A stretch of 7,943 nucleotides of DNA from Anaerolineae bacterium (GTDB lineage: Bacteria > Chloroflexota > Anaerolineae > Aggregatilineales > Phototrophicaceae), in the NCBI GenBank assembly GCA_020848855.1, contig JADLHH010000078.1:1-7943 (forward strand). The letters are read 5' to 3'. The notes under the pieces are model-generated. The model was given only the letters and a program-made list of their open reading frames with translations. It was not told the DNA's origin and made no database searches. This document shows positions 1 to 7,682 of the stretch, piece by piece; the stretch's first letter is position 1; every line of letters starts with the position of its first letter. Made by a program: the position numbers and the translations under genes.

Positions 1-1041
1 GACGATTGCCGCCGCCATCAGCGCCATATTCAGCGGGCTGACCGTCAGCGCACCCTGACCGAGCGCCAGCCGCGCCAGCGCGTCGTCGTCTGCGGCAGTC
101 GGGACAGGCGTCGGCGTGGTGTTGGCGTCGTCGGTGACGAAGCCGGGCAGTGTCGGCTGCTTGTCCAGCCGGAATGTATCGATGGTCGCCTGTACCGTCG
201 CCGAGCCGAGGTCAATCGCCAGCGACTTGAAGGCGTTCGGACAGGCGAATGTGTAAGCGTCGCGCAGCGGCAGCGCCATCGACGGCAAACGCACGGCACA
301 GTTGAGTTGCAGGTCTTGCAGCACGACCGGGTCGGTCGCCTGATCGATGTTTGCATCAATTGGATGGTTGACGAGGAAAGCGGCTGCCATCAGCGGCGTT
401 TCCAGCGCGCCGCCCGGCTGGTAGCGCCCCTGCAGCACGCGGTTGAAGAATGGGTTGCCCGGCGCGGCGATCAGCATATCCCAGTTGGCATCGAGCGTGT
501 TCGGATCGTAGGTCGGCAGGCTGAGCATCGCCAGCACCGCGCCGTCGGGCACGCTCAGGACGACTACCGCACCCTGCTGCCCGTCCATCGCCTCGGCGAT
601 GCGCTCCTGCACGTCGAGGTCGAGTGTCAGGCGCGCGTCCGAGCCTTCCGTCGCGCGGTGCAGCAGGCTGTCGAGCAGCAGCGTGCCCGTGTCGCGCGCG
701 ATTGAACTGCCGCTCAGCACGCCGTCGAACGCGCTTTCCGCGCCGTCCGCGCCGTAGCGCAGGCTGAAGTAGCCGAGCGCGCTGTACATCGCCGGGTAGA
801 GGTACTGGCGAATCACCCGCTCGTTTTCGCCGAGTGTCGATTCCACCAGCGTCCGGTCGTCGCGGTCGACCAGTGTGCCGCGCAGGATCGATGCCGCCGC
901 TTCGACACGGCGCGGGTTATCGGCGCGCTTGAGGATCGTGTCGGGACCGATCACCGCCCAGTAGGTCGCCGCCATAGTGACCACCCCGAACATCGCCAGC
1001 AGACCGATCACCAGGCGGTTGACTTCGCGCGTGAATTTCAC
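1..1041 (-). CDS. Class B penicillin-binding protein (PbpA/PBP2-like), catalytic motifs lost; 3' end off window
   Basis: The frame is open for 347 codons from a GTG two bases after the SEDS stop, with a GGGAGAG Shine-Dalgarno inside the end of the upstream gene. An N-terminal membrane segment (about residues 10-32) is followed by a PbpA-type dimerisation region (NPRRV near 42-46, RGTLVDRD near 54-61, YFSLRYG near 91-97). A transpeptidase fold runs from about 137 (TLDLDVQ, QQGAVVVLS, LPTYDPN) to LGQGALTVSPLNMAL at 327-341. Class B PBPs normally cross-link peptidoglycan outside the membrane with a partner SEDS protein. Here YQPG (207-210) is followed by GALE where the family has STFK, so Ser is Gly211 and Lys is Glu214. 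The SxN motif, 55 residues on, reads Ala266-Cys-Pro268. The KTG motif would lie beyond the window. Family assignment is firm; I infer a non-catalytic, perhaps regulatory, role. The gene is not decayed, since no stop or frameshift is seen. Confidence 0.9.
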   Translation of the reverse strand, partial: MKFTREVNRLVIGLLAMFGVVTMAATYWAVIGPDTILKRADNPRRVEAAASILRGTLVDRDDRTLVESTLGENERVIRQYLYPAMYSALGYFSLRYGADGAESAFDGVLSGSSIARDTGTLLLDSLLHRATEGSDARLTLDLDVQERIAEAMDGQQGAVVVLSVPDGAVLAMLSLPTYDPNTLDANWDMLIAAPGNPFFNRVLQGRYQPGGALETPLMAAAFLVNHPIDANIDQATDPVVLQDLQLNCAVRLPSMALPLRDAYTFACPNAFKSLAIDLGSATVQATIDTFRLDKQPTLPGFVTDDANTTPTPVPTAADDDALARLALGQGALTVSPLNMALMAAAIV

Positions 1042-1043
1042 GG

Positions 1044-2369
1044 CTAGTTCTCTCCCGCCGAAAGCCGCAGCAGCAGACCGACCATGACGAAGTTGACCAG
1101 CAGCGAGCTGCCCCCATAGCTGAAATAGGGCAGGGTGACCCCCGTTAGCGGGATCAGCTTCAGCACGCCCCCCATGATCAGCAGCGTCTGCACGGCGATC
1201 ATCACGCTCAAGCCGACCGCCATCAGCGCCTGAAACGGGCGGAACCGCTGCAGGATGGCGATTCGCAGCCCGCGCACGACGAACACGGCGAAGCAGACGA
1301 CGACCGCGATCACGCCGAGCAGCCCCCATTCTTCCGCCAGCGCCGCGAACACGAAATCCGAATGGACGACCGGGATGTACGTCGGCGACCCCTGTCCGAT
1401 TCCCTGCCCGAAGACGCCGCCCGCCGCGAACGCCAGCAGGCTCTGGACGATCTGAAAGGCACGGTTGTCGGCTTCCAGCCAGGGATTCAGCCAGATATCC
1501 ACCCGAAGCTGCACCACGTCGAATAGCCGATAGGCGGCTATCCCGGCGACCGCCACCAGCAGCGCGCCGATGATCAGCAGCGGGGCGTAGCCGCTGGCGA
1601 CGTACAGCAGCACCAGAAACACCACTAAGAACAGGATCGCCGTGCCGAGATCGCGCTGCCATACCAGAATCACGACCGACAAGCCCCACATCAGCGCGAT
1701 CGGTCCGGCGATGCGCGGCGAAAAGCGCGGGTGTTCGATAGTCATTCGCTTCTGCGCTGCGGGGTCTGCCGCGCGCATTGCCGGGAACTGCTCGGCGAGG
1801 TAGCTCGCCAGGAACACCACCAGAATCACCTTGAGCGCTTCCGATGGCTGGAAGAACAAGCCGCCGACGCCCAGCCACAATTCCGGCGCGCCTTCCAGCC
1901 CGGACGGGTTCGTGCCGAGGATAATGGTGGCGATCAGCAGCGCGAAGCCGACGACCAGCAGCGTGTAGCGATAGGCGCGCAGCAGCCGGACGATGCGCGG
2001 CGTGTAGACGATCACCAGCATCGCGGTTGCCGAAACCAGCAGCCACAGTGTCTGGCGCTCGGTGAAGTTCGGCGCCAGCCGGTCGATCATGACCAGCCCC
2101 CAGCCGCTCATCAGCAGCGCCAGCGGGAACAGCAGCCGGTCGCGCAGCGGCAGACGGCGGTCGAGTAGCCGGCTGCCGACCACCGCGCAGACGATCCAGG
2201 CGATCAGCGGCAGCCAGGCGCGAATTTCGAACGCGCGCCGTTCCAGCGTCAGCGCCAGCAGGTTGACGAACACGAAGCCTCCGCCCAGCACGAGCAGCAG
2301 CACTTCCGCCCAGTGGATCGGCGGCACTTCGCGTTCAAGGCGCTCAGGGAGGTGGAGCGTAACGTCCAT
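1044..2369 (-). CDS. SEDS family peptidoglycan glycosyltransferase (FtsW/RodA)
   Basis: This 441-residue polytopic membrane protein belongs to the family that polymerises lipid II into glycan strands with a class B PBP partner. SEDS signatures seen are FQPSEALK (173-180), QRDLGTA (238-244), a NPW..AD.RAFQIVQS stretch (295-310), GQGIGQGSPTYIP (321-333), HSDFVFA (336-342), EEWGLLG, and PYFSYGGSSL (414-423). Asp301 aligns with the putative catalytic Asp of RodA/FtsW and is intact. The N-terminus carries extra membrane segments before the core (about residues 22-42, 51-68 and 79-96), like the long actinobacterial RodA form. Start is the ATG 19 bases after the MTAP stop; no clear Shine-Dalgarno is visible, so translation may depend on coupling. 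FtsW versus RodA cannot be decided from sequence alone; the PbpA-like neighbour favours a RodA-like elongation role. Confidence 0.95.
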   Translation of the reverse strand: MDVTLHLPERLEREVPPIHWAEVLLLVLGGGFVFVNLLALTLERRAFEIRAWLPLIAWIVCAVVGSRLLDRRLPLRDRLLFPLALLMSGWGLVMIDRLAPNFTERQTLWLLVSATAMLVIVYTPRIVRLLRAYRYTLLVVGFALLIATIILGTNPSGLEGAPELWLGVGGLFFQPSEALKVILVVFLASYLAEQFPAMRAADPAAQKRMTIEHPRFSPRIAGPIALMWGLSVVILVWQRDLGTAILFLVVFLVLLYVASGYAPLLIIGALLVAVAGIAAYRLFDVVQLRVDIWLNPWLEADNRAFQIVQSLLAFAAGGVFGQGIGQGSPTYIPVVHSDFVFAALAEEWGLLGVIAVVVCFAVFVVRGLRIAILQRFRPFQALMAVGLSVMIAVQTLLIMGGVLKLIPLTGVTLPYFSYGGSSLLVNFVMVGLLLRLSAGEN

Positions 2370-2388: not shown

Positions 2389-3249
2389 TCAGGTATTCGG
2401 GAACAGCCGCCCGACGATTGGGCGCAGCCTGCCGATCTGCATCACGGCGCGGTCGGTCATCACGGCATTGTCGAGCGTGTGATGGCAGTCGCAGTCCAGC
2501 GACACATCGAGCAGTTCGACCGCCCGCACAAGCGCCCGCTGGGCGATGCGCAGGTTGTGGTGGAAGGTCTGCACCACCATCGTCGAATTGACCGGCTCCT
2601 CGTGCCATACGTCGTAATCGGTGATGTGCGACATGGTGGTATAGGCGATCTCGGCTTCGCGCGCCAGAAACGCTTCCGGGCAGGTGGTCATGCCGATAAT
2701 GTCGCAGCCCCACTGCCGGAAAATTCGGCTTTCGCCGCGCGTGCTGAAGCGCGGACCCTCGATGGTGATGTACGTCCCGGTCTCGTGCGCCGTGCCGCCA
2801 ACCTCGCGCACAGCCTGCGCCCCGATTTTGCTCAGTTCCGCGCAGAGCGGGTCGGCGACCGAAACATGCGCGACCAGCCCGGTGTCGAAGAATGACCGTC
2901 CGCGATCCGCCTTCGTGTAGTCAACAAGCTGGTCGGGGAAGACGATGTGACCCGGCGCGTAGTCTTCCCGCAGCGAGCCGCAGGCGTTCACGGCGAAGAT
3001 GAAGCGCGCGCCGAGCATTTTCAGCGCGCAGATGTTGGCGCGGTACGGCACGGTGCTGGGCGTGAACACGTGCCCGATGCCGTGACGCGGGATGAAGGCG
3101 ACTCGCTTGCCGCCCAACGTGCCGATCACCACGTCGGCGCTGGGCTTGCCAAAAGGCGTGTCGATCACCTGCGTGACCACATCGGTCAGTTCCGGCATAT
3201 TGTACAGCCCCGAACCGCCGATCACGCCGATCTGGATACTTTCCATCAT
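2389..3249 (-). CDS. mtnP: S-methyl-5'-thioadenosine phosphorylase
   Basis: The enzyme splits methylthioadenosine with phosphate into adenine and 5-methylthioribose-1-phosphate, salvaging a by-product of polyamine and related AdoMet chemistry in the cytoplasm. The 286-residue protein has the PNP/MTAP family features in order: GGSGLY (11-16, phosphate loop), RHGIGH (55-60), YRANI.ALK.LG (69-80), AVNACGSL (86-93), PDQLVDYT (105-112), TIEGPRFSTRGES (162-174), GMTTCPEA (186-193) and TDYDVW (210-215). Asp211 and Asp213 in TDYD match the pair that selects 6-aminopurines, so MTA rather than inosine/guanosine is the expected substrate. Two ATGs are adjacent (3249 and 3246); either could be used, and the nearest purine-rich run upstream is weak. 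It lies 29 bases after the SDR gene and 19 before the SEDS gene, so it is probably co-transcribed with cell-wall genes, an unusual setting. Confidence 0.95.
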   Translation of the reverse strand: MMESIQIGVIGGSGLYNMPELTDVVTQVIDTPFGKPSADVVIGTLGGKRVAFIPRHGIGHVFTPSTVPYRANICALKMLGARFIFAVNACGSLREDYAPGHIVFPDQLVDYTKADRGRSFFDTGLVAHVSVADPLCAELSKIGAQAVREVGGTAHETGTYITIEGPRFSTRGESRIFRQWGCDIIGMTTCPEAFLAREAEIAYTTMSHITDYDVWHEEPVNSTMVVQTFHHNLRIAQRALVRAVELLDVSLDCDCHHTLDNAVMTDRAVMQIGRLRPIVGRLFPNT

Positions 3250-3278
3250 GATGCTGTTCTACTCTTTCCCTGATGTGG

Positions 3279-4070
3279 CTACATGGTGGCGCGGATTCTA
3301 CCGCCATCGACCGGGAGCGCCACCCCATTGATGAATCCCGCCGCCGGGGAGCAGAGAAAGACGGCGGCGTTGGCGAATTCTTTGGGCGTGCCGTAGCGCC
3401 CCAGCGGAATGTCGGCGGCGGCGCGTTCGCGCTCCTGCTCGACGCTCGTGCCGTTTTTGCGCGCTCGCGTTTCCAGCAGGTCGGCTTGCCGCGCCGTTTC
3501 AATCGTGCCAGGCAGGAGACTGTTGACGCGAATCGCCTCTGGTGCGAGTTCCTGCGAGAGTGTTTTCATCAGCCCGACGACCGCCGGACGGATCGCATTG
3601 GTCAGGATGTTGTTTTTGCTCGGCTGTTTGGCGGACGCCGACGCAATCGCCAGAATCGCCGCCCGCCGCGACTGGCGCAGGTAGGGCAGGGCAGCGCGCA
3701 CCAGATTCACCGCGCTCATCAGCGTCGTCTGGGTCGCGCGTTCCCAGTCTGCGGCGGCGAAATCGTCGAACGTGCCGCTGGGCGGTCCGCCCGCGTTGGT
3801 GACGAGGATGTCCAGCCCGCCGAGCATGTCGGCGGCGTTGCGCACCAGCCGCTCGACGGCTGCCGGGTCGCTCACGTCGCCCGCCAGCGTGTAGACCGGG
3901 TTGCCGCTCGCCTGATTGATGCCGGCAGCGGTCTCCTGAAGCGCCCCCAATGTCCGGCTGTTGACGACCACCAGCGCCCCTTCCAGGCTGAACTGGCGGG
4001 CGGTCGCCGCGCCCAACCCCTGACTGGCAGCGGTGACCAGCACTTTCGCCCCGCGTAATCCTAAATCCAT
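3279..4070 (-). CDS. Short-chain dehydrogenase/reductase-like protein, non-canonical active site
   Basis: The 263-residue protein has the SDR Rossmann fold: a cofactor-binding motif TAASQGLG (13-20), a GDVSD acidic motif (64-68), VTNAGG (90-95), a beta5 segment AILAIASASA (138-147), LPGTIET (186-192) and the C-terminal VDGGRIR (254-260). The catalytic Tyr-x-x-x-Lys is absent: aligned on the helix that starts ILTNAIRPAVVGL, the Tyr position is Thr157 and the Lys position is Arg161. I recall a 3-oxoacyl-ACP-reductase-like SDR subgroup (YvrD/APE0912-like) with the same kind of SNAVR-type replacement, so this is probably subgroup-typical rather than damage. The substrate cannot be read from the sequence. 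It starts 4 bases after the FHA gene stop, with GGAG in the end of that gene as a plausible ribosome site, and is part of the fha-SEDS-PBP operon. Confidence 0.9.
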   Translation of the reverse strand: MDLGLRGAKVLVTAASQGLGAATARQFSLEGALVVVNSRTLGALQETAAGINQASGNPVYTLAGDVSDPAAVERLVRNAADMLGGLDILVTNAGGPPSGTFDDFAAADWERATQTTLMSAVNLVRAALPYLRQSRRAAILAIASASAKQPSKNNILTNAIRPAVVGLMKTLSQELAPEAIRVNSLLPGTIETARQADLLETRARKNGTSVEQERERAAADIPLGRYGTPKEFANAAVFLCSPAAGFINGVALPVDGGRIRATM

Positions 4071-4074
4071 GCGC

Positions 4075-4518
4075 TCACTGCTCCAGTTCGAGCCGGAAGC
4101 TCAGGCTGCCGATGCCGATAATGTCGCCGTCGGTGATGATCACCGGCTGGGTGATGGGCATTCCGTTGATGGTCGTGCCGTTGCGGCTCTGGCGGTCTTC
4201 CAGCCACCACTGACCGCTGCGCAGCGCGACCAGCGCGTGCTCGCCGCTGGCGTAGTTGTCGTTGATGGCGATGGTGTTGGTGGGCGAACGTCCGAAGCTG
4301 GTGAGCGGCAGCAGCGGGTATGACTGCCCGGTCGGGGCGAAGCTGTCGCCAATATCGCGCATTTCGATCAGCCGACCATACGTGCGGCGGCTGGCTTCGA
4401 CCTGCACGACCACGCTGCGGTAGTCGTGCCACATGACGACGAACAGCAGCGCCAGCACACCCACGAGCAGCGCGCCGGAAACCATCCGCAGCAGAAAAAG
4501 CGTCAGTTCGGTGCTCAC
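4075..4518 (-). CDS. Membrane-anchored FHA domain protein (FhaB/FipA-like)
   Basis: This is a 147-residue protein with one N-terminal membrane segment (about 7-30) and one C-terminal FHA domain (about 70-145) facing the cytoplasm. FHA domains bind phosphothreonine. The expected signature residues are present: Gly76-Arg77, Ser91-x-x-His94, and Asn113-Gly114 in SRNGTTING. Size and architecture match actinobacterial FhaB/FipA, which links Ser/Thr kinase signals to the division and elongation machinery. Start is the GTG at 4518, with GGAG five bases upstream; 15 bases separate it from the fhaA-like stop. The partner kinase is not in the window. Recognition of FHA is firm; the FhaB role is inferred from order next to an FhaA-like gene and the SEDS/PBP pair. 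Confidence 0.9.
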   Translation of the reverse strand: MSTELTLFLLRMVSGALLVGVLALLFVVMWHDYRSVVVQVEASRRTYGRLIEMRDIGDSFAPTGQSYPLLPLTSFGRSPTNTIAINDNYASGEHALVALRSGQWWLEDRQSRNGTTINGMPITQPVIITDGDIIGIGSLSFRLELEQ

Positions 4519-4533
4519 GACGGCTCCGCCGGG

Positions 4534-5301
4534 CTACAGGATCGGCTGGTCGCCAAAATTGGTCTGGTCGTCGAGCAGGGATGTGTCTTCAAGATAGACG
4601 ATCTGCGTTTTGCCGACACGGATCACGTCGCCCGGTTGCAGGCGGTGCTCGCGGACGATGACATCGTTGACGAGGACGCCCCCCTGGCTTTGCGTGTCGA
4701 ACAGCGTATAGACGCCGAACCGCAGCCGAAGCTGGATGTGATGGCGCGAGACGTAGGGGTCTTCCAGCACGACGTGGTTATCACGGCTGCGCCCGATATT
4801 GACGATGCCGTCCCGCAGCAGGTAGGTCATCTGCCCGTTGACGATGAGTTGAGGGTTCTGCGGCGCGCGCGACTCCGGCATCGCGATCGGCTTCATGACT
4901 GCCGTCGCCGAAGTCGTGCCGCTGCGATAGCCGGCATCGACCACGATTTCGCTGGTTTCGGTGTTCGGCGCGGCGATGAACTCGATAGTCGGCACGTCGC
5001 TCAGCCGATAGCCGACTGCCGCCGCCAGTTCGACCAGATGCTGACCGAGGATATGCTTCAGTTCCGGCTGGCGGCTCATCAGGTGCTCGCACACTTGCGG
5101 GTTGAGGCGAATCAGATAGCGGTCGGGCGCGTACGGGCGCGGGTCGCCGTCGCTGGCTGGCTGGATTCCGCCCTCCATCGCCCGCGCCAGATGCAGCGCG
5201 ATATCCTGTGCGCGGATCGTCTTGCTGAAAAGCTGGGCGAACGTGCCTTCGATAAGCTGCTCCAGCTTCGCCTCTAGGCGTGCGATTGCTTGATCATTCA
5301 T
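4534..5301 (-). CDS. FhaA-like protein: DUF3662 N-terminal domain plus C-terminal FHA domain
   Basis: From the ATG at 5301 the product has 255 residues. The N-terminal region (about 1-110) is the FhaA-type DUF3662 domain, seen in LEAKLEQLIEGTFAQLF (9-25), ALHLARAMEGG (35-45) and YAPDRYLIRLNP (57-68). A linker with little conservation (about 112-150) leads to an FHA domain (about 152-240) with Gly170-Arg171, Ser185-Arg-His187 and a SQGGVLVND turn. The Asn of the usual NGT turn is replaced by Gly. In Mycobacterium FhaA contacts lipid II flippase MviN and wall-synthesis regulators; a comparable role here is inference. In-frame ATGs also exist at 5337 and 5310, but the first overlaps the -35 and the second overlaps the -10 of the promoter, so 5301 is the best start. 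No Shine-Dalgarno precedes it, as expected for a leaderless message. Confidence 0.9.
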   Translation of the reverse strand: MNDQAIARLEAKLEQLIEGTFAQLFSKTIRAQDIALHLARAMEGGIQPASDGDPRPYAPDRYLIRLNPQVCEHLMSRQPELKHILGQHLVELAAAVGYRLSDVPTIEFIAAPNTETSEIVVDAGYRSGTTSATAVMKPIAMPESRAPQNPQLIVNGQMTYLLRDGIVNIGRSRDNHVVLEDPYVSRHHIQLRLRFGVYTLFDTQSQGGVLVNDVIVREHRLQPGDVIRVGKTQIVYLEDTSLLDDQTNFGDQPIL

Positions 5302-5308
5302 GGGGCGC

Positions 5309-5337
5309 ATTATAGCCCGACGCTCAGATCGCGGCAA
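5309..5337 (-). promoter_or_regulatory. Sigma-70-type promoter of the fhaA-fhaB-SDR-MTAP-SEDS-PBP operon
   Basis: On the minus strand a perfect TATAAT (5314-5309) follows TTGCCG (5337-5332, four of six to the consensus) at the ideal 17-base spacing. The expected transcription start, about 6-8 bases after the -10, falls at 5303-5301, on or next to the ATG of fhaA. No other strong promoter is visible in the small gaps downstream, so this site probably drives all six genes. Seen directly: boxes and spacing. Inferred: activity and start point. Confidence 0.8.
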
Positions 5338-5399
5338 TGCGCGCTTACCCTACGTGCTGCCTCTGGCGATATGTGGCTTATCGTGACGTGGGGACATAT

Positions 5400-5428
5400 G
5401 TAGGGGCATGGCGTCGCCATGCCCCTAC
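5400..5428. repeat. Perfect 29-base palindrome (hairpin repeat), 14-base arms
   Basis: Arms 5400-5413 (GTAGGGGCATGGCG) and 5415-5428 are exact reverse complements around one base; as RNA it would fold with a 12-13 bp stem and a small loop. It lies 25 bases after the stop of the PPIase gene, in the 152-base gap before fhaA. No U-tract follows on either strand, so it is not a classical intrinsic terminator, although it could still slow polymerase or protect the 3' end. The GTAGGGGC...GCCCCTAC form resembles palindromic repeats that I recall being dispersed in Chloroflexota and cyanobacterial genomes; copy number cannot be checked here. Confidence 0.9.
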
Positions 5429-5453
5429 GGAAATTACAGGATGGTATATCGGG

Positions 5454-6791
5454 CTAGATTTGCGGCACCCAGACCGGCTCGGTCGGCACGTTGTCTGTCC
5501 ACGCATCGTACAGCACGACGTTGGTGTCCGCCGACTGGCGCAGGTTGGTGAGGTATTCGCTGAACGCCTGATTCTTCGCCTGCTCGAATTCGGTGTCGGT
5601 CATCTCGCGGTCGTCGCGGGCGCGCACCTGAATGATGTGGTAGCCGAAGTCGGTCTTGACCGGTCCGACCAGCGCGCCGATTTCGGCGGTTTTCACCGCG
5701 TCGGCAAATTCCGTAACGTAATTGCTGGCGGGCGCCCAGCCCAGTTCGCCGCCCGACGAAGCGGAGCCATCGGTCGAGATGGCGCTGGCAAGGGCGGCGA
5801 ACGACTCGCCGTTCTGAAGCGCGGCGAGCGCATTGTTGGCTTCTTCTTCGGTGGCGACCAGAATGTGCCGGGCATCGACATACGGCGCGGTGCGCGTCAC
5901 GTCGGTGATCACGGCGTCACGGACTTTGTCGCGCAGCGCGTTCATGCGGAAGTAATCACGGATGTCGGCGTCGCTCGCGCCGGTCAGCGTGCGAATCTGC
6001 GCGAAGAAGTCGGTCTCGCGTTCGGCTGCCTGCGTCGCGATTTCGGTCGCGTTCGGCGTCGACGAAGGTGTCGCCGAGGGCAGCGGTGTAACGGTCGGCG
6101 TCCCGGTCACTTCGCCGGGGGTTGGCGTCAGCGTTGCCGACGGAACCGGCGACGGGGTCGGTGAAACCAGCGGCGTGTGCGATGGCGTCGGCGATGGCGA
6201 AGCGGTCGGCTCGATGCCGGCGGTCGCCGGGTCGTAGCCGAACAGCTTGGCGATCTCGGCGTTCAGGTCGTCTTCGGTGACGGTGATGCCGAGTTCCTGC
6301 GCCTTCTGGCGAACCAGCTCGTCCTCGACCATCGTGTTCAGAACCGAGTTGCCCAGTTGGTCGGTGATCTGAAGCTGCCCGTACCAGGTGCTGTACGGCT
6401 GCTGGCTGGTGATCAACTGCGATAGCTGATCGGTCGTGTAACCGAGACTGCTGTACAGGCTGAGCGCGCTGTCCAACTGCTGAATCAGCAGCGCCCGCTC
6501 GATCTTGGCGCGGGTTTTGAACTCGCCCACGGTGATCGTTTCCCCGTTGACCGTCGCCACCGCCTGATTGGGGACGAGCAGTTGGTCGTTCAGAACGGCG
6601 ACCAGCAGAATCAATGCGGCAATGCCGACCGTGATCAGCGTGCCAATCAGGATCAGGCGTTGAATTTCGATTTCGCGCTCGTGCTTGGAGCGGTATTCAC
6701 GAAGGAGTTTGGGCTGGAGCCGGCTCTTCGATTCGGGTTCCGGTTTGGGTTGAGCGGGCTTTGGCAGCCCGGTGGTGCTGCGCTTCGACAT
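5454..6791 (-). CDS. Membrane-anchored SurA/PrsA-type parvulin peptidyl-prolyl isomerase
   Basis: This 445-residue foldase is anchored by one signal-anchor segment (about 46-68) after a basic cytoplasmic tail rich in Lys, Arg and Pro (1-45). The extracytoplasmic part starts with a SurA_N-like region (about 76-185: VNGETITVGEF, MVEDELVRQKAQELGITVTEDD). Next come a Pro/Thr/Ser-rich spacer (about 194-248), the rest of the SurA_N-like helices (to about 300) and a rotamase domain (about 303-392: ARHILVATEEEA, FAALASAISTDG, GGELGW, GPVKTDFGYHIIQV). Such proteins help exported proteins fold. Start ATG 6791 has AGGGAG five bases upstream. The spacer is unusual for sitting inside the chaperone region rather than next to the anchor. 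It is flanked by the rpsR terminator and the palindrome, so it may be transcribed alone or by read-through. Confidence 0.93.
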   Translation of the reverse strand: MSKRSTTGLPKPAQPKPEPESKSRLQPKLLREYRSKHEREIEIQRLILIGTLITVGIAALILLVAVLNDQLLVPNQAVATVNGETITVGEFKTRAKIERALLIQQLDSALSLYSSLGYTTDQLSQLITSQQPYSTWYGQLQITDQLGNSVLNTMVEDELVRQKAQELGITVTEDDLNAEIAKLFGYDPATAGIEPTASPSPTPSHTPLVSPTPSPVPSATLTPTPGEVTGTPTVTPLPSATPSSTPNATEIATQAAERETDFFAQIRTLTGASDADIRDYFRMNALRDKVRDAVITDVTRTAPYVDARHILVATEEEANNALAALQNGESFAALASAISTDGSASSGGELGWAPASNYVTEFADAVKTAEIGALVGPVKTDFGYHIIQVRARDDREMTDTEFEQAKNQAFSEYLTNLRQSADTNVVLYDAWTDNVPTEPVWVPQI

Positions 6792-6805
6792 CTTCGCTCC
6801 CTGTC

Positions 6806-6879
6806 AAAAAAGAAAACGGGCGCTGGCACGCAAATCGGGGCATGTGGAACGCTTCGTGCCATGCCCCGTGCTGCCAGCG
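6806..6879 (-). terminator. Rho-independent terminator of the rpsF-ssb-rpsR operon
   Basis: Nineteen bases after the rpsR stop, the minus strand forms a two-part stem. An outer arm CGCTGGCA (6879-6872) pairs with TGCCAGCG (6828-6821). An inner arm CGGGGCATG (6868-6860) pairs with CATGCCCCG (6844-6836). The outer stem is followed four bases later by TTTTCTTTTTT (6816-6806). Stem plus U-tract on the minus strand only is the classical intrinsic terminator layout. It sits between rpsR and the PPIase gene and so separates the two units. The inner arms share GGGGCATGGC and CATGCCCC with the palindrome at 5400-5428. Confidence 0.85.
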
Positions 6880-6897
6880 TCTATTCGCGTTATGCGT

Positions 6898-7251
6898 TTA
6901 GTCCTGAACGATGACGAACGGCAGCAGCGCGAGATGCCGTGCGCGTTTAACTTCGCGCGCCAGTTCGCGCTGGCAGCGCGAGCAGTTCCCGGTCTGGCGG
7001 CGCGGCTTGATCTTGCCGGTTTCGGTGACGTAGCGCTTCAGCGTTTCGATATCCTTATAGTTGAAGCAGCGCCCTTTGGGGCAGTACGTCCCCTGACGAT
7101 AGCGCCGCCCGAAACCACGCTGCCCGCGCCCGCGGCGGTCGTCGCGTCCGCCGTCACGGCTGTCGCGCGATTCCCGTCCGCCGCGTCGCCCTACATCCTC
7201 GTTCTCGTCGCCGTCGTCTTCGTCTTCGATATTCGCGCCGCGACGCTTCAT
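6898..7251 (-). CDS. rpsR: Small ribosomal subunit protein bS18, with a long charged N-terminal extension
   Basis: The C-terminal 66 residues are the S18 core that binds 16S rRNA beside S6: [19 protein letters not shown] (63-81), PRRQTG (83-88) and [13 protein letters not shown] (101-113). The first 55 residues are an acidic stretch (8-19) followed by an Arg/Gly/Asp-rich, low-complexity stretch (20-50), making the protein 117 residues against about 75-90 usual. Four cysteines are present, C57-x4-C62 and C90-x2-C93, in the places where zinc-type S18 proteins carry ligands, though the first pair is spaced differently from the usual CPxC. The chosen ATG is the only in-frame start candidate near; an AGGAGA sits about 20 bases upstream, too far to be ideal, so the start is a little uncertain. 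It is third in the rpsF-ssb-rpsR operon. Confidence 0.93.
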
Positions 7252-7280
7252 TTCATCAGGCAGAGTCTTCTCGTCTCCTG

Positions 7281-7676
7281 TCAGAAGGCGTAATCGCCGT
7301 TATCGCCTTCGTCATTCACATAATCGAAATCACTGTGGGCGCGGCGGTCTCCGAGCAGGATCATCTCGTTGGCGACGAGTTCGGTGCGGAAGTGTTTCTT
7401 GCCGCCGTCGTCTTCCCAGCCGCGCGTTTGCAACCGACCTTCAACGTAAACCTGCTGGTTCTTGGTCAGGTGCGCCTTGCAGATTTCGGCAAGGTTTCCC
7501 CAGGCAACTACGTTAAACCATTCGGTTTCTTCGCGTCGTTCGCCTTCAGATGATACCCACGTCCGGCTGGTGGCGACGCTGAAGCTCGTTACCGGGCGAC
7601 CGCTGGGCGTGAAGCGCATTTCCGGGTCGCGCCCCACGTACCCGATAATGATCACTTTGTTCAGACCGCGTCCCAT
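7281..7676 (-). CDS. ssb: Single-stranded DNA-binding protein
   Basis: The 131-residue product (from the ATG at 7676) has the OB fold of bacterial [26 protein letters not shown] at the start, [35 protein letters not shown], and [10 protein letters not shown] near residue 110. It coats single-stranded DNA in replication, recombination and repair. The tail is short and acidic and ends in GDYAF instead of the usual DDDIPF; the acidic run and terminal Phe needed to recruit partner proteins remain. A second ATG lies two codons upstream (7682), but GGGGAA at 7688-7683 fits only the 7676 start. The gene lies between rpsF and rpsR, as in many bacteria. Confidence 0.96.
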
Positions 7677-7682
7677 AAGCAT

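Follow-up and report, generated by a model that had tools for sequence, protein, structure and literature searches.

A putative PbpA-type pseudo-transpeptidase beside an intact SEDS polymerase in Chloroflexota

The stretch of DNA analysed here (contig JADLHH010000078.1, 7,943 nucleotides; hereafter the window) is, as judged from its relatives, a piece of a Chloroflexota genome. Its minus strand carries the gene of a SEDS glycosyltransferase, followed by that of a PbpA-type class B penicillin-binding protein (PBP) homologue, hereafter pseudo-PbpA. The family of this protein has lost all three catalytic motifs of a transpeptidase (SxxK, SxN and KTG), and its loss of catalysis is as sure as sequence allows. 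We infer that pseudo-PbpA is probably a natural pseudo-transpeptidase kept as an activator or scaffold of the SEDS polymerase, with cross-linking left to other PBPs. A sequence-only reading of the window had already proposed a pseudo-transpeptidase retained by selection beside a SEDS protein, and this proposal is now supported by homologues, by the ratio of nonsynonymous to synonymous substitution rates (dN/dS) in relatives, by gene order, by the predicted fold of the orthologue P0003 and by the intact catalytic Asp of the SEDS partner.

Loss of the catalytic motifs

The minus-strand translation of positions 1-1041 is 347 residues long and free of stops. The tetrad YQPG (residues 207-210) stands directly before GALE (211-214), and LGQGALTVSPLNMAL follows in the translation. 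The register was fixed with HMMER against Mycobacterium tuberculosis PbpA: GALE aligns with SxxK and ACP with SxN, so that both replacements named in the sequence-only reading are confirmed. The transpeptidase domain PF00905 scores 40.8 bits (Pfam cut-off 22.1) and the PbpA dimerisation domain PF21922 30.8 bits (Pfam cut-off 27), in agreement with the dimerisation features previously described as retained. An AlphaFold2 model of P0003, a full-length orthologue 87% identical to pseudo-PbpA, has a predicted local distance difference test score (pLDDT) of 88.2 and a predicted template modelling score (pTM) of 0.85. Its best structural matches are M. tuberculosis PbpA and other PbpA-type structures, and this close orthologue is thus predicted to have the PbpA fold with an N-terminal membrane helix.

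For comparison, the best 120 of 445 homologues were taken; one of them, P0002, was the window protein itself and was dropped, leaving an alignment of the window and 119 homologues with an identity of at least 51%. The Lys of SxxK is found in none of these 120 rows (41 Glu, 79 Gln), and its Ser is retained in 15. SxN is likewise absent from all 120, the site reading ACP in 84, GCP in 31, SCP in 4 and TCP in one. The window sequence ends before the KTG site, but this motif is missing from all 117 rows with a readable C-terminus, 106 of which read HAA, HAT or HAS instead. Thus, the earlier claim that two of the three motifs are lost stands for SxxK and SxN and falls short for the family, which has lost three. 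To judge from these alignments, the motif loss is far beyond chance. Since 119 homologues share it, it can be due neither to sequencing error nor to one aberrant copy. Error had been considered unlikely before, on the ground that the change from Lys to Glu needs two base changes; that count was wrong, the Glu codon being GAA, one change from AAA, and the conclusion now holds on the homologues instead.

The altered pocket could in principle be a new enzyme that uses Cys267, the His that replaces the KTG Lys, and the Glu or Gln that replaces the SxxK Lys. Cys248 and Cys267 are indeed invariant in the 88 full-length inactive rows of the trees described below, where Pro268 is kept in 85, and His occupies the former KTG Lys position in most of the close set. 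In the wider set, however, His is found in only 50 of the 88 rows and Glu or Gln in 72, and the part around SxN is gone altogether in 15 loci. The Cys pair also occurs in 8 of the 40 active rows, for which reason it is probably inherited and structural, and we dropped it as a candidate gain of the inactive clade; a Cys248-Cys267 disulfide is possible. Because the candidates for catalysis are not constant across the clade, we set aside a new active site as very improbable.

Distribution and phylogeny

A contig scan with the window protein alone returned zero relatives. With an alignment of 38 homologues as query, and with the best 80 of 99 matches kept, it yielded 79 loci, of which L012 was left out for an internal stop. 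Sixty-eight pbpA-type loci (L001-L067 without L012, plus L070 and L071) lack the motifs, SxxK being readable in 67 of them. L068 and L069, titled Chloroflexia, are motif-intact, and L072-L079 are eight intact PBPs of other groups.

A second sample comprised 150 genomes of the class of one member, with the best 10 candidates per genome scored. The best match reached E <= 1.5e-38 in 48 genomes. Two of these, G064 and G024, appear to hold other PBPs: their loci L222 and L228 match only from the transpeptidase part onward and were excluded from the pbpA counts and the trees. The remaining 46 orthologues comprise 11 motif-intact, 18 full-length inactive and 15 shortened copies, one inactive copy split between contig ends (G045) and one that lies over two frames beside an intact SEDS open reading frame (ORF) (L216, in G157); the last is due either to real decay or to an assembly fault. 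L191 and L206 carried a flag for one stop within the match, and their ORFs read as open. A weak partial match in G096 (L229) likewise reads ACP. In a phylum-wide sample PF21922 was present in 193 of 301 genomes, and SxxK was intact in 29 of the 29 readable loci among the 30 best-scoring, a sample biased to high scores. Close relatives with SxxK and SxN intact, which the sequence-only reading had named as evidence against itself, were not found: the close orthologues are inactive as well, and intact ones occur only in more distant lineages.

Trees were built with the motif columns masked. Besides L012 and the other PBPs L072-L079, they leave out L216, L222, L225, L226, L228, L229, L254, L257 and L259, which are fragments, broken or other PBPs. 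The quick tree contains 143 rows (88 full-length inactive, 15 shortened and 40 active). One branch, with a Shimodaira-Hasegawa-like approximate likelihood ratio test (SH-aLRT) value of 95, separates 102 of the 103 inactive rows from the 40 active rows and the shortened L208. The same split was recovered in a careful tree of 58 rows (42 of the 43 inactive rows versus 16; SH-aLRT 95.9; bootstrap 98, not fully settled). The root probably lies on the intact side, since other groups are intact. On these trees there was one ancient loss and at least one later loss; two state changes would suffice, the second being a separate one in L208, whose sister L185 is intact. L208 (G017) and L185 (G086) share 77% identity over their common part, and their SEDS genes 92%; this is the second, later loss.

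Selection on the inactive genes

Values of dN/dS were calculated in relatives by the Nei-Gojobori method for 40 of 53 close pairs. Outside one group of loci described below, close inactive pairs give 0.06-0.17, near the values of the SEDS gene at the same loci. Thus, the inactive genes of the relatives are under purifying selection despite the lost catalytic residues, as is characteristic of pseudoenzymes. For a test by domain, eight inactive and four active pairs were picked by hand, with no locus reused, pooled and submitted to a codon bootstrap. The inactive pairs have a dN/dS of 0.111 (95% interval 0.091-0.132) in residues 1-205 and of 0.173 (0.149-0.202) in residues 206-477; the corresponding values for the active pairs are 0.086 (0.063-0.114) and 0.054 (0.038-0.070). 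The ratio of the second region to the first exceeds 1 in all eight inactive pairs (1.03-2.22) and is below 1 in three of the four active pairs. Therefore constraint in the N-terminal part, from the membrane helix through the pedestal to the beginning of the transpeptidase domain, resembles that in active proteins. The active-site part is relaxed but not free, the relaxation relative to active PbpA being confined to the region C-terminal of residue 205.

A decaying gene, in which catalysis was lost by drift on the way to a pseudogene, would show such relaxation of residues 206-477, and it would also account for the shortened copies and the one frame-broken copy. However, the frames are open across the clade over a deep split, dN/dS lies well below 1, the codon-position composition of the window frame matches that of the neighbouring genes along its whole length, and the gene row is conserved. 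We therefore give decay very little credence.

Alternatively, the dead transpeptidase domain might act as a substrate receptor or sensor that binds, but does not process, peptidoglycan stem peptides or nascent strands and reports the state of the wall to the SEDS protein or to the FHA proteins encoded nearby. Most members do keep the whole domain, purifying selection still acts on residues 206-477 (dN/dS 0.173), and the gene row was found to include fhaA in 42 and fhaB in 44 of 71 loci. Against this, 15 loci are without the part around SxN, and the columns that once held the motifs differ among members of the clade, so that no conserved pocket can be made out. A sensor thus appears unlikely.

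Shortened and fused forms

The 15 shortened loci match the family model up to column 210-232, and in nine of them a second match begins at column 320 or later. Unfused shortened forms have 375-401 residues, compared to 475 for P0003. None of the 15 retains the region around SxN. The SxxK site, at the edge of the remaining sequence, is altered wherever it is still present. On the quick tree the shortened state needs five changes, at least three of which are forced by starred branches.

Fusion was scored when a single ORF matched both the SEDS and the PbpA models; active PbpA ORFs that extend upstream over a SEDS ORF in another frame were not counted. SEDS-PbpA fusions are present in 28 tree rows, all inactive, with seven changes on the tree, and in none of the 40 active tree rows. 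A model of the natural fusion L064 (pLDDT 88.0, pTM 0.78) has PbpA-type chains as its best matches. The occurrence of single-ORF fusions in relatives suggests that SEDS and PbpA form a physical pair.

The SEDS partner and other penicillin-binding proteins

Papers are cited below by their PMC numbers, each for single passages. On the basis of its motif, HSDF, Asp338 of the window SEDS protein was taken as the equivalent of Asp262 of Escherichia coli RodA (PMC10449877). This catalytic Asp is kept in all 90 loci with an inactive PbpA (89 and the window) and in all 25 loci examined with an active one. Three locus pairs (L034/L180, L021/L181 and L027/L182) are identical and probably represent the same genomes twice, so that the 90 loci correspond to at most 87 distinct genomes. 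A SEDS ORF was found beside 26 of the 40 active tree rows within the flanks retrieved.

Our statements on other PBPs rest on the genomes of relatives. Among ten genomes with an inactive PbpA, eight contain three SEDS matches, G006 two and G007 four. The SxD triad is a normal variant of SxN. Class B PBPs that have an intact SxxK and KTG, together with SxN or SxD, are encoded within about 5 kb of each of the two other SEDS genes in G001, G003 and G004 and of one other SEDS gene in G002. Longer PBPs with intact motifs, which to guess from their length are class A, are also present in genomes with an inactive PbpA. Therefore cross-linking can come from elsewhere in these cells.

The same observations bear on another explanation, namely that the pair of SEDS protein and pseudo-PbpA makes a glycan meant to stay un-cross-linked, or a polymer other than peptidoglycan. 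The presence of three SEDS matches in eight of the ten genomes, the location of the other SEDS genes near motif-intact class B PBPs in the genomes looked at, and a partner that by its motifs should be unable to cross-link would all fit. However, the SEDS protein has ordinary motifs, and the phylum also contains orthologous pairs with an active PbpA, which leaves this explanation far-fetched.

Two further proteins with altered motifs were noted in this survey. Genome G009, which also holds L050, encodes at L089 (709-2514, plus strand) a class B PBP of 602 residues that reads TIVQ, SVN and KPG, so that a single cell may possess two inactive class B PBPs. In G011, at L148 (2770-5103, plus strand), a transpeptidase-like protein of 778 residues has AVIK, GCD and TTG at the motif sites.

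Proposed function

An N-terminal part that stays constrained, a catalytic part that is relaxed or missing and an adjacent polymerase that is intact together form, as best we can infer, the pattern that an activator or scaffold would predict. With its membrane helix and pedestal domain, pseudo-PbpA would bind the SEDS polymerase encoded next to it and would switch on or position glycan polymerisation, as active class B PBPs do, and transpeptidation would be supplied in trans by other, intact PBPs of the cell. This mechanism draws on published work on SEDS proteins and their class B partners. In such pairs the N-terminal region that corresponds to residues 1-40 of pseudo-PbpA contacts the SEDS protein, and the pedestal acts on extracellular loop 4 of the latter (PMC8078798); the membrane helix of PBP2 stimulates RodA (PMC10449877), and RodA is switched on by opening of the PBP2 transpeptidase domain (PMC10257715). 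Replacement of the serine of Bacillus subtilis PBP2B leaves its support of division in place, the activity then coming from PBP3 (PMC5656894), and Clostridioides difficile SpoVD is partly dispensable as a catalyst (PMC12713402). Litorilinea aerophila, another member of the Chloroflexota, has a peptidoglycan-like layer and pathway (PMC13319060), and peptidoglycan is therefore to be expected.

Several observations weigh against an activator or scaffold. One group of loci (L047-L049, L051 and L054) has a dN/dS of 0.26-0.36, above the 0.12-0.25 of its SEDS genes, so constraint varies. The active pair L068/L069 departs from the active pattern, with a ratio between the two regions of 1.23. Because L216, one of the 46 class-sample orthologues, lies over two frames, loss of the gene may be tolerated. 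Moreover, most members retain the whole transpeptidase domain, which activation alone would not require. The retained domain could inhibit rather than activate, since closed PBP2 represses the polymerase until opening in the RodA-PBP2 model (PMC10257715).

Comparable systems are known. M. tuberculosis PbpA, an actinobacterial protein, has the motifs and, according to the titles of PDB entries 3un7, 3upn and 3lo7, solved beta-lactam acyl-enzyme complexes, whereas the family of pseudo-PbpA is without all three motifs. Active Chloroflexota orthologues (e.g. L069, L185, L199 and L252) belong to the same gene family and, unlike pseudo-PbpA and its close homologues, have their motifs intact. B. subtilis PBP2B S309A and C. 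difficile SpoVD S311A likewise have a non-catalytic role beside a SEDS protein, with cross-linking by other enzymes; in the passages cited these are laboratory point mutants, whereas the dead state in Chloroflexota is natural, old and clade-wide. Natural SEDS-PBP fusions, likewise a single ORF with a SEDS and a PBP part, are already known (PMC10449877); the 28 fusions described here, which were compared with them by ORF architecture only, all carry an inactive transpeptidase part. A literature search of titles and abstract openings, with many subscription papers outside its scope, found no description of a natural clade of inactive class B PBPs, which is not proof of absence.

The analysis suggests that in this branch of the Chloroflexota the inactive PBP works as a non-enzymatic helper of the polymerase. 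The roles of class B PBPs as cross-linkers or as allosteric activators of SEDS proteins have so far been probed with laboratory mutants; evolution ran the same experiment over a deep split, in which catalysis was lost once early and the polymerase was kept. The clade provides natural minimal partners for reconstitution and structural work, and a way to find the residues that carry the activation signal. It also calls for caution, as a protein annotated as a 'penicillin-binding protein' does not necessarily bind penicillin. A broader proposition, to which we attach about equal belief and doubt, is that a large clade of Chloroflexota has an additional peptidoglycan polymerase that is uncoupled from any cross-linker of its own. 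The class B partner would be reduced to an allosteric subunit, in several lineages without much of the catalytic lobe or within the SEDS polypeptide; strand synthesis at this site would be independent of a beta-lactam-sensitive partner, and cross-linking would come from other enzymes or be absent.

Gene order and features of the window

On the minus strand the genes follow the order ssb, rpsR, a PPIC-type peptidyl-prolyl isomerase (PPIase), FhaA-like, FhaB-like, a short-chain dehydrogenase (SDR), S-methyl-5'-thioadenosine (MTA) phosphorylase, SEDS glycosyltransferase and PbpA-like. The GTG start of the PbpA frame, at 1039-1041, lies two bases past the TAG stop of the SEDS gene. Coordinates are given in Table 1.

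Table 1. Position of pseudo-PbpA, its sites and neighbouring genes in the window.
Feature	Position	Strand	Remarks
Pseudo-PbpA, PbpA-type class B PBP homologue	1..1041	-	347 of ~475 residues, 3' end cut at the first base of the window; 87% identical to P0003 (475 residues)
Predicted membrane helix, pseudo-PbpA residues 1-40	922..1041	-	helix 2-37 in the model of orthologue P0003
Pedestal/dimerisation region, pseudo-PbpA residues 41-133	643..921	-	PF21922 matches 54-133
SxxK site, reads GALE, residues 211-214	400..411	-	translation and HMMER alignment to M. tuberculosis PbpA
SxN site, reads ACP, residues 266-268	238..246	-	translation and HMMER alignment to M. tuberculosis PbpA
Cys248	298..300	-	invariant in 88/88 full-length inactive rows
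Cys267	241..243	-	invariant in 88/88 full-length inactive rows
SEDS glycosyltransferase (FtsW/RodA family), 441 residues, partner gene	1044..2369	-	
SEDS catalytic Asp338 (HSDF), intact	1356..1358	-	
MTA phosphorylase, conserved neighbour	2389..3249	-	
FhaB-like FHA protein	4075..4518	-	
FhaA-like FHA protein	4534..5301	-	

The row ssb, rpsR, PPIase, FhaA, FhaB, (SDR), MTA phosphorylase, SEDS, PbpA recurs across the clade (window 2389-7682; L001-L071), and in 55 of 71 loci the gene recognised ahead of SEDS is that of MTA phosphorylase. Finally, a perfect inverted repeat with arms of 14 bases and one base between them is located at 5400-5428 of the window, in the intergenic stretch that separates FhaA from the PPIase.
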